32,940 bases of DNA from Thermoleophilia bacterium (lineage in GTDB: Bacteria; Actinomycetota; Thermoleophilia; Miltoncostaeales; Miltoncostaeaceae). The stretch is from contig JADHKZ010000010.1 of NCBI GenBank assembly GCA_016780995.1, positions 1 to 32,940 on the forward strand, given 5' to 3'. The position numbers and the translations under genes are program-made. The notes below the pieces were generated by a model, which did not search any database, was not told the DNA's origin, and saw only the letters and a program-made list of their open reading frames with translations. Position 1 is the first letter of the stretch. The number at the start of each line of letters is the position of its first letter. This document shows, piece after piece, positions 13,874 to 21,227 of the stretch.

Positions 13874-14197
13874 ATGGGAGAGAGCAGAGACGAGATCGTG
13901 GCCCGGGTCACCGCGGAGCAGGAGGGCCTTCACCCCAACCCCGAGTACACCCGCACGGCCAGGCGCCGGGTGTGGGTCCTGGGCTCGATCATGGTGCCAG
14001 TGAGCCTGCTGATCGGATTCGCCATCGGCGCGCCGCTGGGGTGGTCGCCGTTCCTGTGGATCGCCACGGGGCTCGGCATCAGCCTTGGCGTGTTCTACGT
14101 GGCGTACGTGGTGCTGGCCGAGCGCGATGACGGCCGCATCCAGCGCGAGCTCGACGAGGCGCGCAGGCAGCGCGAGGCCACGGGCGAGGGCGGCTGA
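13874..14197 (+). CDS. Two-helix membrane protein, function unknown
   Basis: 107 residues: a charged N-terminus ([16 protein letters not shown]), two hydrophobic helices (about 33-53 and 59-80), then a charged helix ([20 protein letters not shown]) likely to be cytoplasmic coiled coil. No family was recognised. ATG 13874 is chosen because GACAAT with a 7-base spacer precedes it; ATGs at 13865 and 13859 are possible. Its TGA shares a base with the ATG of the LLM gene (TGATG), so they form an operon. Confidence 0.7.
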
Positions 14198-15270
14198 TGC
14201 GGGGCATCGAGATGGGCATCTACTCGTTCGGCGACGCCACCCCCGATCCGGCGACCGGCCGGGGCATGGACGTGGGGCAGCGCGTGCGGGACCTTGTGGA
14301 TGAGATCGTGCTGGCCGACCAGGTGGGGCTCGACGTGTTCGGGGTAGGGGAGCACCACCGGCCGGACTTCCCGGTGTCGTCCCCCGCCGTGGTGCTGGCC
14401 GCCGCCGCCGCGCGCACATCGCGCATCCGGCTCACGTCGTCCGTGACGGTGCTGTCATCCGATGACCCGGTGCGGGTGTTCCAGGACTTCGCCACCATCG
14501 ACCTCATCTCGGAGGGGCGCGCCGAGATCATGGCCGGGCGGGGGTCGTTCATCGAGTCGTTCCCGTTGTTCGGCTACGACCTGGCCGACTACCAGGACCT
14601 GTTCCTGGAGAAGCTCGACCTGCTGCTGCAGCTGCGCGAGGAGGAGGTGGTCACCTGGCAGGGGCGCCACCGCGCCCCCATCGAGGGCCGCGCCGTGCAC
14701 CCGCGCCCCCAGCAGGACCCCATCCCGGTGTGGATCGCGGTGGGCGGCACCCCGCAGTCGGTGGTGAACGCCGCGGCGCGCGGCCTGCCCATCTCGGTGG
14801 CCATCATCGGCGCCGCTGCGCAGCCCTTCATCCCCTTCGTCAACCTGTACCGCGAGGCCCTGGGTGAGTTCGGGCACGATCCCGCGCAGGTGCCGGTGGG
14901 CATCGGGTCGCATGGCTTCATCGCCGACACCTCGCAGAAGGCCGCCGACATCTCCGCACCGGGCCTGATGGCGGCGATGAACCAGATCGGCCGCGAGCGG
15001 GGGTGGGGCAGCGAGATCGACCGCGCCCAGTTCGACCGCATGCGCCAGCCCCACGGGGCGCTGATGGTGGGCAGCCCGGCCGAGGTGACCGAGAAGATCC
15101 TGGCCCAGTACGAGATGTTCGGGAACCGGCGCGTGCTGCTGCACATGGGCGTGGGCAACCCCCCGCACGCCGACATGATGCGGGCGATCGAGCTGTACGG
15201 CACGGAGGTGGCGCCGGCCGTGCGCAAGGAGGTCGCCAGACTCGACTCCATGGCGGCCGCGGCGCGGTAA
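14197..15270 (+). CDS. Luciferase-like (LLM) flavin-dependent oxidoreductase
   Basis: 357-residue TIM-barrel oxidoreductase of the bacterial luciferase superfamily, close by eye to the LLM group that opens with GIYSFGD and carries [28 protein letters not shown] and [16 protein letters not shown]. Those strings are all present (at 7-13, 50-58, 82-100 and 114-129). Enzymes of this group use FMN, sometimes F420, but their substrates are largely unknown. The length is normal. The start overlaps the 2-TM gene stop by one base. The final TAA is also the start of the TAAGGT box for the next gene. Confidence 0.9.
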
Positions 15271-16715: not shown

Positions 16716-19700
16716 TCAGTCATTGCCTGTGAATTCCACGATAGCCGCTCCCGAGGTGAGGCCCGCGCCGAATGCCACCAGGCCGCCGAGGCCCGTGGGG
16801 GCGCTGGGCAGGTGCTCGGCGATGGCGATGGGGATGGTGGATGACGAGGTGTTGCCCCAACGCTCCACGTTGACCACGAACCGGTCCTCGGGCAGTCCGC
16901 TTCGGGCCTGCACCGACGAGATGATGCGGCCGTTGGCCTGGTGCGGGATCACATGCATGAGCTCGGGCACCGATGCTCCCGACGCGGCGGCGGCGCGGTC
17001 GAGCATCCGCAGCATCTCGCGCACCGCGCGGGTGTACACCCGCGGCCCGTCCATGAACAGGTGGTCGTCCAGGTGCGGTCCATGGCGGATCACCGACCCG
17101 TCGTCGCCGGTGGCCGACAGCACCGGGCGGTGCAGCAGCAGGGGCGAGTCGCCCAGGCGATCCGGGCCGTGCACCACCGTGGCCGTGACGGCGTCGCCGA
17201 ACACCACCACGGTGTCGAAGTCGTCGGGGTCCACGAACCGCGACATGGCCTCGGCGGTGATCACCAGCACCGACGCGTCGCGGCGCTGCTGCAGCATGTC
17301 GTAGGCGTTCTGAAGGGCGTACAGGTAGCCCGAGCAGGCGGCCGACACGTCGCTGGCCGCCACGTCGGCCGGGCCGTCGTGCTCGGCCAGCTGGGCCTGC
17401 ACCAGGCACGCCACCGTGGGGCTGAGCCGCGGCGGGGTGCCGGTGGCCACGATGATGGCCTCCAGGTCGCCCAGCGCCATGCCCTCGTGCTGCAGTGCCT
17501 CGCGGGCGGCCTGCGAGGCAAGGTCCACCAGGCTCTCGTCGGCGCCCAGGATGGGTCGCTGGCGGATGCCCGTGCGTCGTACGATGTCGGCCTCGGTGCG
17601 GCCGGGGAACCGCGCGGCGATGTCGGCATTGGTGAGGATCTGGCCACCCGCACGCACCGAGATGCCCGACAGGCCCACGGGCATGGAGCGCACTGCCGGT
17701 GACGGCGCCACCGAGGGCGCGGGCGATGCGGCGCGCTCGGTCACCCGGCGCACCCGCAGGCCGGGCTCGGCAGGCACGCGCCGGCGCGCCGCGGCGGCGC
17801 CCGGGGCCAGGGTGATGCGCGCCAGCGGGGTGCCCACGGCCACCGACTCCATCTCCTCGTGCAGGTCGGCGATCTCGCCCGATGCCGGGGCGGCCAGCTC
17901 GAACGCCGCCTTGTCGCCCTCGCATTCGGCGATCACCTGGCCCTCGGTCACGGTGTCGCCCTCGCCCACCATCCACTCCACCACCATCACCTGCTGGTCG
18001 GCGGGGCTCGACCCGGTGGCCTCCACCACCAGCACGCCATCCTGCTCCAGGGCGGCGGCCTCCTCCACCTCGAGGCCGCCCAGCATCGCGGCCACGGCCT
18101 CCACCACGTCGCGCGTTGATGGCAGCACCTCGGCCTGGTTCACGTAGTTGTTGGGCACCCAGGTATCGGGGCGCGCGATGCGGCGGGTGGTGAGGTTGCC
18201 CCCCAGGTGGTCCGACACCTGCGCCACCACCTCTGCGCCGAAGCCGCCCGTGATGTTGTCCTCGTGCACCACCACCAGGCGGCGGGTGCGGGCCACGCTC
18301 GCCACCACGGCCTCGATGTCCCACGGGGCGATGCCGCGCAGGTCGATCATCTCCACGCCCACGCCGCCGGCATCCAGCACCGCGGTGGCGCGCTCGGCGA
18401 TGGGGGCGGTGGACCCCCAGGCCACCAGCGTGACGTCGTCGCCGCGGTTGCGCACGGCCGCGTGGCCCGGCACCACGGGGTGGAACGCGCCCTCGGCGCG
18501 CGTGGAGCGCGCCGGGTCGTTGAGGCAGGTCTTGGGGTAGAGGATGAGCGTGGGGCGCTCGCCGTCGAGGGCCGCCTGCAGGGCGCCTGCGGCATCGTCG
18601 GCCGTGCTGGGCATCACCACGTCGAGGCCGGGGATGTGGGCGAACGTGGCCTCCAGCGTCTGGGCGTGGAAGGGGCCCAGGCCGGGGCGGTAGGCGCCGC
18701 ACGGGGCCAGCATGACCACGGGAGCCGAGAACCGGCCGTCGGTGCGCCAGTGGATGGTGGCGAGCTCCGACGCGATCTGGTTGAACGCCAGCGGCAGGAA
18801 GTCGGCGAACTGCACCATGGCCACCGGGCGGCCGCCGGCCAGCGCGCGGCCGATGGCGGTTCCCACGATTGTCGACTCACTCAGCGGTGCGTTGGTGACC
18901 CGGCCCGGGAACGCGGTGGAGAGCCCGCGCGTGAGCCCGAACACGTCACCCTTGGGGTCCTCGATGTCCTGGCCCATCAGCGACACCCGTGGGTCGGCGG
19001 CAAGCCGCTCCGCCAGCACGTCGCGCATGGCCTCCAGCATGGTGCGCGGCGCGCCCTCGCCCGTGGCCGGGGCATCGGCCGCGCGCGCGATCACCTCGGG
19101 TGCCACTGGCGGGATGGCCGACCGCGACGGCTCGGGGTCGGGCGCCTCCAGCGCGCGGGCGGCGGCGGCGCGCACCTCGGCCTCCACCTCGCGGTCCAGC
19201 GCCACCAGGTCGGCTGCCGGCACGCCGTCGGCCACCAGGTGCTCGCGCAGGGCGGTGATGGGATCGCCCTCGCGGGCCTCGGCGCGCTCGGAGTCATCGC
19301 GGTACACCGACTCGTCATCGGCGTTGGTGTGGTGCGTGAGCCGCTCCACCTCCACCACCATGATCACCGGGCGCCGGGCCTCGCGTACGTCGCGCACGGC
19401 ACGGGCCGTGATGGCGTCGAGGGTGATGGGGTCGCGACCATCCGCGCGCACGATGGGCGCGCCCAGGAACTGGTCGACCGGGCCCATGGCGGTGTCGTAG
19501 AACGTGCGCCCCGACGTGTGGGTGGAGATGGCGTAGCCATTGTCCTCGATCCAGAACAGCACGGGCAGGCACTCGCGGGCGGCCTCGCCGATGGCCTCCA
19601 TCACCTCGCCCTGCTGCGTGGTGCCGTCGCCCACGCCGGCCACCACGATGGGGGCGTCGGGGCTGTCGCGCACTTCGCGTGCCACGCCCACGGCGTGAAG

Positions 19701-20012
19701 CAGCCCGTTGCCGGTGGGCACGGTCATGGGCAGCACGTTGAGGGCGGGGTCGTTGAGGAACGCCGGCATCTGGCGCCCTGCCGAATCCGACTGCGCCGTT
19801 GACAGGAGGCCGTGGAAGAACCGGTCGGGCTCGATGCCCCGGCGCACCAGCAACGCGCGCGACCGGTAATGCGGCTGCAGCCAGTCGTGCGGGCCCAGGT
19901 GGTCGGCAAGAACCGCCGATGCCTCGTGCCCGGCGCCTCCCAGCTGGAAGAACGCCTCGCCGCGCTGCACCAGCTCCTCCTCCACCGCATCGATCCAGCG
20001 TGCGCTCATCAT
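16716..20012 (-). CDS. Four-part fusion: 2-oxoacid dehydrogenase E1-alpha + E1-beta + lipoyl domain + KAS III
   Basis: One continuous frame of 1098 residues from ATG 20012. E1-alpha (1-290) has the TPP motif GDG at 128-130 paired with DN at 157-158 (EDNGYAIS). E1-beta (about 322-645) has GQDIEDPKGDVFGLT, a complete SES..G..IG segment and H449 (GPFHAQTLEATF). A lipoyl domain (about 673-735) keeps the modifiable lysine K701 in EGDKAAFE. A Pro/Ala/Arg linker (736-775) leads to KAS III (776-1098) with C893 (AACSGY), H1024 (PHQANGR) and N1054 (WGNTSSS). Expected chemistry: decarboxylate a branched-chain-type 2-oxo acid, load acyl on lipoate, and condense with malonyl-ACP. No E2 catalytic domain is present, and E2/E3 genes are not in the window. 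Coding-like sequence continues upstream to CTG 20069. Confidence 0.93.
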   Translation of the reverse strand: MMSARWIDAVEEELVQRGEAFFQLGGAGHEASAVLADHLGPHDWLQPHYRSRALLVRRGIEPDRFFHGLLSTAQSDSAGRQMPAFLNDPALNVLPMTVPTGNGLLHAVGVAREVRDSPDAPIVVAGVGDGTTQQGEVMEAIGEAARECLPVLFWIEDNGYAISTHTSGRTFYDTAMGPVDQFLGAPIVRADGRDPITLDAITARAVRDVREARRPVIMVVEVERLTHHTNADDESVYRDDSERAEAREGDPITALREHLVADGVPAADLVALDREVEAEVRAAAARALEAPDPEPSRSAIPPVAPEVIARAADAPATGEGAPRTMLEAMRDVLAERLAADPRVSLMGQDIEDPKGDVFGLTRGLSTAFPGRVTNAPLSESTIVGTAIGRALAGGRPVAMVQFADFLPLAFNQIASELATIHWRTDGRFSAPVVMLAPCGAYRPGLGPFHAQTLEATFAHIPGLDVVMPSTADDAAGALQAALDGERPTLILYPKTCLNDPARSTRAEGAFHPVVPGHAAVRNRGDDVTLVAWGSTAPIAERATAVLDAGGVGVEMIDLRGIAPWDIEAVVASVARTRRLVVVHEDNITGGFGAEVVAQVSDHLGGNLTTRRIARPDTWVPNNYVNQAEVLPSTRDVVEAVAAMLGGLEVEEAAALEQDGVLVVEATGSSPADQQVMVVEWMVGEGDTVTEGQVIAECEGDKAAFELAAPASGEIADLHEEMESVAVGTPLARITLAPGAAAARRRVPAEPGLRVRRVTERAASPAPSVAPSPAVRSMPVGLSGISVRAGGQILTNADIAARFPGRTEADIVRRTGIRQRPILGADESLVDLASQAAREALQHEGMALGDLEAIIVATGTPPRLSPTVACLVQAQLAEHDGPADVAASDVSAACSGYLYALQNAYDMLQQRRDASVLVITAEAMSRFVDPDDFDTVVVFGDAVTATVVHGPDRLGDSPLLLHRPVLSATGDDGSVIRHGPHLDDHLFMDGPRVYTRAVREMLRMLDRAAAASGASVPELMHVIPHQANGRIISSVQARSGLPEDRFVVNVERWGNTSSSTIPIAIAEHLPSAPTGLGGLVAFGAGLTSGAAIVEFTGND

Positions 20013-20093
20013 GGCCCGGAGGGTGCCGAGCGCGCGCGCGTGGGTGGTGGCCTGCTGGGTGGTGCTCAGTTCTGACGCCGATCGTCGGGATCC

Positions 20094-20111: not shown

Positions 20112-20149
20112 GACGCACCTCCGGACGCGTGCCCCCTGCGGGCATTGGG

Positions 20150-20170
20150 ATACGGAAAACCATGCCGTAT
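20150..20170 (+). promoter_or_regulatory. Inverted repeat upstream of the F420-type LLM gene
   Basis: ATACGG (20150-20155) and CCGTAT (20165-20170) form a 6+6 inverted repeat with 9 bases between, just upstream of the TACCAT -10 (20178-20183). It covers the -35 zone, a position suited to a dimeric repressor. Confidence 0.35.
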
Positions 20171-20189
20171 GGCCCGGTACCATCGGGTC

Positions 20190-21227
20190 ATGCGCATCGG
20201 CCTGGCCCTCGACCACATGGCGCCCCCCGTTGATTCGCTGGCGCTCGCCCGCGATGCCCAGGCAGCCGGCTGCGACCAGGTGTGGGTGCCGGAGACGTGG
20301 GGCTTCGACGCCCCGAGCCTGATGGGAGCCCTGGCCGCCGGTACCGCGCGCATGGGCATCGGGGGCGTCCTGCCGGTGTACTCGCGCACGCCGGCGCTCA
20401 TCGCCCAGACGGCCGCGGGCGTGGATGCCCTGTCCGGCGGACGTGCCGTGCTCGGGCTCGGCACGTCGGGGCCGCAGGTTGTGGAGGGGTGGCACGGCGT
20501 GCCGTTCGCCCGCCCGTTGGGTGAGCTCCGCGAGGTGATCACGGCATGCCGCACGGCCTGGCGGCGCGAGGTGCTGCAGGTGGACGGCCCGCGTCCCGTG
20601 CCGCTGCCCGCGGGCGAGGGAACGGGCATGGGGCGCCCGCTCAAGATGATCACGCGCCCGGTGCGCCCGGACATCCCCATCGTGGTGGCCGCGCTCGCCC
20701 CCGGTGGGGTGCGCCTGGCAGCCGAGATGGCCGACGGCTGGTGGCCGCTGTTCGCATCGCGCCAGGCCATCACGGGGCCGTGGGCGCAGCCGCTGGCCGA
20801 CGGCCGCGTACGGCGCGACCCCGCACTGGCCCCGCTTGCCATCACCACGTCGGCCGTGTGCTGGGTGGGGGATGGACCGGCCGCGGATGCCGCGCGCGCG
20901 GCGGCTCGGCGGGAGATCGCGTTCTACGTGGGGTCAATGGGGTCGCGCGAGATCAACTACTACCGCGACGCCGTTGCGGCCATGGGGTTCGCGCGCGAAT
21001 GCGCGGCCATCGCGGACGCCGCGCTGGATGGCCGGCGCCGCGACGCCGAGGCGCTGGTGGGCGACTCCATGGTGGATGCCCTTGCGGTGATCGGCGAACG
21101 GGCGCGGGTGGCCGATCGCCTTGCGGAGTTGGCGGATGCCGGCGTGGGCACCCTGGTGGTGTCGGCGGGCACGCCCGACCCGGTGCGGGCCATCGCGGGG
21201 TTGCGCGAGGCCCTGGCCTGGGCCTGA
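20190..21227 (+). CDS. F420-dependent-type LLM oxidoreductase
   Basis: 345-residue luciferase-superfamily TIM-barrel protein. The markers MRIGLALDHMAP, ARDAQAAGCDQVWVPETWGFDAPS and ALSGGRAVLGLGTSGPQVVEGWHGVPF, with P-LGELREVI after them, match the LLM class thought to use reduced F420. Another landmark is IPIVVAALAPGGVRLAAEMADGW. The substrate is unknown. ATG 20190 follows TACCAT plus 6 bases (leaderless). It is divergent from the fusion gene, sharing a 177-base intergenic region with two palindromic sites, so co-regulation is possible. It converges on the NAGPA-domain gene with 4 bases between stops. Confidence 0.88.
   Translation: MRIGLALDHMAPPVDSLALARDAQAAGCDQVWVPETWGFDAPSLMGALAAGTARMGIGGVLPVYSRTPALIAQTAAGVDALSGGRAVLGLGTSGPQVVEGWHGVPFARPLGELREVITACRTAWRREVLQVDGPRPVPLPAGEGTGMGRPLKMITRPVRPDIPIVVAALAPGGVRLAAEMADGWWPLFASRQAITGPWAQPLADGRVRRDPALAPLAITTSAVCWVGDGPAADAARAAARREIAFYVGSMGSREINYYRDAVAAMGFARECAAIADAALDGRRRDAEALVGDSMVDALAVIGERARVADRLAELADAGVGTLVVSAGTPDPVRAIAGLREALAWA

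Follow-up and report, generated by a model that had tools for sequence, protein, structure and literature searches.

In Staphylococcus aureus, the branched-chain 2-oxoacid dehydrogenase complex (Bkd, composed of E1ab, E2, and E3) is followed by FabH (PMC10026030). In FabH itself, the CoA adenine stacks between Trp32 and Arg151 and is hydrogen-bonded by Thr28 (PMC4606726). Photorhabdus BkdABC is reported to form a 5-methyl-3-oxohexanoyl thioester and carries an ACP domain within BkdB (PMC4578411, PMC4901931). Two-carbon loaders of the NapB/NapC/NapD/NapE type (naphthyridinomycin; DinU/T/S/Q for dnacin) combine a transketolase-like TPP enzyme with an ACP and a KAS III (PMC7570522).

Here, we describe a gene from a Thermoleophilia bacterium that encodes E1α, E1β, a lipoyl domain, and a KAS III as a single chain. 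The gene lies in the window, by which we mean the whole 32,940-nucleotide stretch analyzed (contig JADHKZ010000010.1, assembly GCA_016780995.1). The fusion shares with the Bkd-FabH route its E1 chemistry, its lipoyl carrier, and, as its presumed end step, KAS III condensation with malonyl-ACP. That route, however, uses several proteins and a free acyl-CoA intermediate, whereas the fusion has no E2, its KAS III has lost the CoA site, and all parts except E3 are held in one chain. By its published description, BkdABC likewise leads from a 2-oxo acid to a condensed product, but it does so with several proteins and requires a phosphopantetheinylated ACP domain. The Nap-type loaders also place a TPP enzyme and a KAS III in one system and charge a carrier protein with an acyl unit, but they consist of separate proteins, belong to an antibiotic cluster, and use a ketose donor and an ACP acceptor.

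A further comparison comes from three Streptomyces plasmid clusters (L040 to L042), which appear streptogramin-like by gene content. In each, the gene for an E1ab with 38 to 39% identity to the E1 of the window protein immediately precedes that of a mega-synthase, and the N terminus of this mega-synthase runs in the order lipoyl, E2 catalytic, ACP, KS. In these mega-synthases, the acyl group could pass from lipoyl to ACP to ketosynthase; a review of pristinamycin II gives the corresponding step as isobutyryl-CoA loading at SnaE1 (PMC6963833). In our E1 tree, the Streptomyces E1ab is the nearest nonfused E1 and is sister to the fusions (support of 95 to 99), which relates the fusion to lipoyl-dependent PKS/NRPS starter loaders, and in both cases loading of a ketosynthase line would depend on a lipoyl group. 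The Streptomyces loaders differ in keeping E2 catalytic and ACP domains, in using a type I KS rather than a KAS III, and in lying inside a biosynthetic cluster; neither their lipoyl-E2-ACP module nor such a cluster accompanies the fusion. By analogy, the fusion may work like the BkdABC, Nap, and Streptomyces systems, but it belongs to none of them, having no E2, ACP, or cluster and a KAS III without a CoA site.

We found no published description of an E1α-E1β-lipoyl-KAS III architecture in the open-access literature or the family databases. A preliminary description of this DNA had stated that no enzyme with this order was known, and within those sources the statement holds; functional precedents exist. 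We think it somewhat probable that the fusion represents an undescribed enzyme family, present in Verrucomicrobiota and Thermoleophilia, that initiates the chains of fatty acids or polyketides with no need for acyl-CoA, namely, a one-polypeptide 2-oxoacid dehydrogenase with a ketosynthase cysteine as its acyl acceptor.

A single reading frame joins E1, a lipoyl domain, and KAS III

On the minus strand of the window, which carries all of the features given below, an ATG at position 20012 opens a frame that runs without an internal stop to a stop codon at 16716-16718 and encodes 1,098 amino acids (whole gene, 16716..20012). The E1α domain comes first (residues 1-295; 19128..20012; Pfam E1_dh, PF00676, 5e-37) and contains the TPP motif G128-D129-G130...N158. 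It is followed by the E1β pyrimidine-binding domain with H449 (residues 324-497; 18522..19043; Transket_pyr, PF02779) and the E1β C-terminal domain (residues 516-629; 18126..18467; Transketolase_C, PF02780). The fusion therefore carries the intact TPP motif and E1β histidine of 2-oxoacid dehydrogenase complexes. Next is a lipoyl domain with a GDKA motif (residues 675-733; 17814..17990; Biotin_lipoyl, PF00364, 7e-13), in which K701 (codon at 17910..17912) is the expected lipoylation site. An Ala/Pro-rich, flexible linker (residues 738-779; 17676..17801) leads to the KAS III domain (residues 780-1094; 16731..17675; PF08545/PF08541; PRK09352, 5e-71), within which Pfam places ACP_syn_III at residues 888-949 and ACP_syn_III_C at residues 1010-1093. 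Alignment with E. coli FabH equates C893 (17334..17336) with the nucleophile C112, H1024 (16941..16943) with H244, and N1054 (16851..16853) with N274, so the Cys-His-Asn triad of KAS III enzymes is complete.

In the 1,098-residue protein, Pfam detected no E2 catalytic domain (2-oxoacid_dh, PF00198), no peripheral subunit-binding domain, and no ACP domain. The preliminary description had reported one stop-free frame of at least 1,098 codons, a missing E2 transferase, and a KAS III that follows the lipoyl domain; each of these points was borne out, and the catalytic residues that it named (G128-D129-G130, N158, H449, K701, and C893/H1024/N1054) all stand where it had placed them.

These features are well conserved. 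Across 23 aligned fusions from two phyla, G128, N158, H449, K701, C893, H1024, and N1054 are invariant, while D129 is retained in 22 and G130 in 20. The lipoyl lysine sits in an invariant D700-K701-A702 motif in all 23 sequences, implying that the lipoyl arm is under selection. The linker between the lipoyl and KAS III domains varies in sequence and is steady in length, at 41 to 58 residues in all fusions. Among solved structures, bacterial FabH is closest to the last third of the protein, although the NCBIfam FabH models score below their curated cutoffs (TIGR00747, 205 bits against 292; NF006829, 239 against 249). An AlphaFold2 model of the whole chain, built from 13 sequences, had a mean pLDDT of 49.5, which is too low to judge geometry or reach.

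The fusion, an orphan gene, occurs in two phyla

Across the 84,980 species genomes scanned, the fusion matched metagenome genomes of Thermoleophilia/Miltoncostaeales at 78 to 85% identity and three Verrucomicrobiota genomes at 52 to 53%. Within a sample of 199 genomes from the host class, it was present in 18 of 20 genomes of the host genus (Miltoncostaeales) and, at 60% identity, in one genome of another genus of the host family (G055); the remaining genomes gave E1-type matches only. When the lipoyl-KAS III segment was used as the query in Verrucomicrobiota, 16 of 145 sampled genomes (the center genome included) contained a continuous match, one of which ends at a contig edge, and at least 12 of these 16 have a second, stand-alone KAS III match. 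Fourteen regions from Verrucomicrobiota and G055 each contained the full-length fusion, at 42 to 59% identity to the window protein. A search of plasmids did not find the full fusion.

In the E1 tree (support of 99) and again in the KAS III tree (support of 100), a single branch separates the 23 aligned fusions from the other sequences, and the Thermoleophilia copies adjoin a subgroup from Verrucomicrobiota. Given that both trees recover one clade with this placement, the sequences are most simply explained by a fusion that arose once and then moved between phyla.

The surroundings of the gene are conserved within the host genus and contain no fatty-acid or polyketide genes. In Verrucomicrobiota, the neighbors vary by lineage and include ribosomal-protein genes, a glycine-cleavage P-protein, a GAF/PEP-utilizing protein with an ammonium transporter, and radical SAM proteins. 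We found no theme common to the neighbors across lineages (recX-like, luciferase-like, DUF302, GAF/PEP-utilizing, ammonium transporter, and radical SAM; names of neighbors without a Pfam match were read from their translations), nor any biosynthetic cluster in the neighborhoods examined in the host genus and Verrucomicrobiota. The fusion thus stands as an orphan gene. Elsewhere the host genome encodes a stand-alone FabH (contig C17), an E1α/E1β/E2 set distinct from the fusion (contig C59), a 1,439-amino-acid OdhA-like frame (contig C91), a LipA, and an E3 whose gene is split across two contigs. The host's E2 genes are located on contigs other than that of the fusion. Since the host has its own FabH, E1/E2 set, and OdhA-like protein, the fusion is an extra, dedicated, and self-standing enzyme.

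The KAS III half has lost its CoA-adenine clamp

The KAS III half resembles FabH in its fold family, its Cys-His-Asn triad, and its ACP-docking arginine, but differs in lacking the Trp32/Arg151 clamp, in having a small gate residue, and in its position C-terminal to a lipoyl domain. At the position of W32, the window protein has D809 (17586..17588); tryptophan is found there in none of the 23 fusions, which have D, A, G, or K, compared to 29 of 31 stand-alone KAS IIIs. Likewise, R151 is replaced by F932 (17217..17219), and arginine occurs in 0 of 23 fusions (F, Q, P, or Y instead) and in 26 of the 31 stand-alone proteins, a control set that is mostly actinobacterial. No fusion therefore retains the CoA-adenine clamp of acyl-CoA-using FabH, while the stand-alone FabH of the host keeps it. 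R1029, the counterpart of the ACP-docking arginine R249, is invariant in all 23 fusions, and arginine is kept at the R36 position in 22. A KAS III fed by a lipoyl arm could dispense with the CoA site but would have to keep its triad and ACP docking. Clamp loss alone is no proof of lipoyl use, because five of the 31 stand-alone KAS IIIs also lack Arg151, one of them together with Trp32.

Phe87 of FabH is the gate of the acyl pocket. The corresponding residue of the window protein is S864 (17421..17423), and this position is Ser or Thr in every one of the 23 fusions but in no stand-alone KAS III of the 31 compared, which fits a roomier acyl pocket and a primer larger than acetyl.

A proposed CoA-independent route to chain initiation

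We favor a scheme, which we hold to be reasonably probable, in which the fusion is a self-contained, CoA-independent chain initiator: acyl-dihydrolipoyl-Lys701 would acylate Cys893, and condensation with malonyl-ACP would follow. First, as we propose from knowledge of the E1 family, the E1α/β half would use TPP to decarboxylate its 2-oxo acid substrate, which is most likely branched (of the 2-oxoisovalerate type), and would reductively acylate the lipoyl group on K701. The S-acyl-dihydrolipoyl arm would then swing on its linkers to a KAS III of the same assembly and acylate C893, with no E2-to-CoA transfer, as the missing E2 and lost CoA clamp suggest. Given that the triad is intact, H1024 and N1054 could drive decarboxylative condensation with malonyl-ACP docked via R1029, yielding a 3-oxoacyl-ACP for fatty-acid synthesis, and a lipoamide dehydrogenase (E3) encoded elsewhere would reoxidize the lipoyl arm. 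The sequence data establish the architecture, its conservation, and the loss of the CoA site; the chemistry of every step, including the transfer, and the identities of the acyl group, substrate, and product are inferred.

Delivery by the lipoyl arm straight to C893 had been suggested in the preliminary description. The loss of the CoA clamp alongside retention of the triad and the ACP-docking arginine argues for this suggestion, as do the conservation of the fusion, its single origin, and its orphan status. If correct, a widespread bacterial lineage would prime fatty acids, probably branched ones, while bypassing the acyl-CoA pool, and enzymology would gain a new acyl-transfer step, from acyl-lipoyl to a ketosynthase cysteine. 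It would also give a reason for the second KAS III in fusion-bearing genomes, and the engineering of branched fatty acids and polyketides would gain an initiator that is compact and encoded by one gene. The lost clamp predicts that activity of the fusion depends on K701 and not on CoA.

One alternative accepts direct transfer from the lipoyl arm to C893 but has KAS III act as an acyltransferase, in place of E2, that hands the acyl group to ACP or another acceptor without condensation. KAS III-like acyltransferases are on record, namely, CerJ and Pau29 (PMC4425429) and ChlB3 (PMC9573744), and the Streptomyces relatives of the fusion E1 feed a lipoyl-E2-ACP loader. CerJ and Pau29, however, have lost a catalytic histidine (Val in CerJ and Asn in Pau29; PMC4425429), yet all 23 fusions keep the full triad. 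With CoA as the acceptor, an option also raised in the preliminary description, this alternative is further disfavored by the absence of the clamp from every fusion. Overall, we regard an acyltransferase role as unlikely.

We consider it a little less likely still that the fusion serves only as a tether, such that E1 and the lipoyl domain use an E2 encoded elsewhere, KAS III is supplied with free acyl-CoA or acyl-ACP, and joining them raises the local concentration. The partner that this would require is available: each fusion-bearing genome tested contains at least one E2 catalytic protein, and a search for a fusion-bearing genome devoid of E2 found none among 16. Several observations nonetheless speak against tethering: the CoA clamp is lost in all fusions, the protein lacks a subunit-binding domain, the fusion has a single origin with a linker held at its narrow range of lengths, and in two genomes (G309 and G311) the fusion itself is the only full E1α/β match that we found. 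An E2 acting on the fusion in trans is thus disfavored.

The acyl group is probably branched, judging from weak sequence signs in the E1 half, which among solved structures is closest to branched-chain E1s and to the E1 of the Thermus 2-oxo acid dehydrogenase. All 23 fusions have F22, Y49, and R80, which align with residues F66, Y95, and R126 of the Thermus protein, and 22 of them have methionine at position 82 (Thermus M128). That the same initiator instead handles an unbranched unit seems to us quite improbable, whether this unit were acetyl or propionyl (made from pyruvate or 2-oxobutyrate) or two carbons of a ketose, as has been proposed for NapB/NapD. Ketose is used by NapB/NapD-type systems (PMC7570522), and the NCBIfam models that best match E1α/β are those for pyruvate dehydrogenase, all far below cutoff; the structural relatives, the conserved Thermus-like positions, and the roomier pocket suggested by the Ser/Thr gate point the other way.

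Integrity and start of the reading frame

The preliminary description had itself warned that an assembly join might have merged neighboring genes. We dismiss such a join, or a sequencing artifact with the same effect, as having next to no chance of being correct, since the full-length frame recurs in many independent assemblies from two phyla and is conserved down to 42% identity, which excludes both chance and an assembly join.

Upstream of the ATG, the frame stays open to a CTG at 20069, the end coordinate that the preliminary description had assigned. This CTG is kept in frame in all nine same-genus homologues examined. In two of them (L010 and L012), a stop codon directly precedes it, making the CTG a plausible start codon that would extend the protein by 19 amino acids (16716..20069).

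The window fusion, which joins E1-alpha, E1-beta, lipoyl and KAS III domains in a single chain, is translated above from an ATG, and a CTG at window 20067-20069 (- strand) lies in frame with it, 19 codons 5' of that ATG. This CTG is kept in nine homologues from the same genus (L007 to L012, L015, L018, and L022), and in L010 and L012 a stop codon immediately precedes it. From the sequence, we consider the CTG the probable start codon of the fusion. The gene is flanked on each side by one luciferase-like monooxygenase (PF00296; window 14197-15270 and 20145-21227, both + strand), and this neighbourhood is kept within the genus.

Miltoncostaeales-type fusion genes were also present in metagenome genomes whose record titles name Bifidobacterium breve or Acidobacteria (L008, L022, and L021). 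The neighbours of the gene are conserved as well in L008, and the titles of these three records are probably wrong.

Among the 23 aligned fusions, GDG in the TPP motif is replaced by GDS (residue 130 position) in three, namely L019, L024, and one more, and by GEG in L112. The Verrucomicrobiota fusion frame L110:5851-10386 (+ strand) carries ~420 extra open codons at its N terminus, to which no Pfam match was found; this additional length may reflect a start overcall.

At the position of FabH Arg151, half of the CoA-adenine clamp, Pro or Thr is found in five actinobacterial stand-alone KAS IIIs (L049, L059, L064, L071, and L073), which cluster together in the KAS III tree. These proteins may represent a further group in which CoA use is altered.

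In three Streptomyces clusters (L040:14929-18400, L041:14878-18500, and L042:11929-15600), a fused E1ab precedes a mega-synthase that opens with lipoyl-E2-ACP-KS domains; this arrangement constitutes a putative lipoyl-based starter-loading module.
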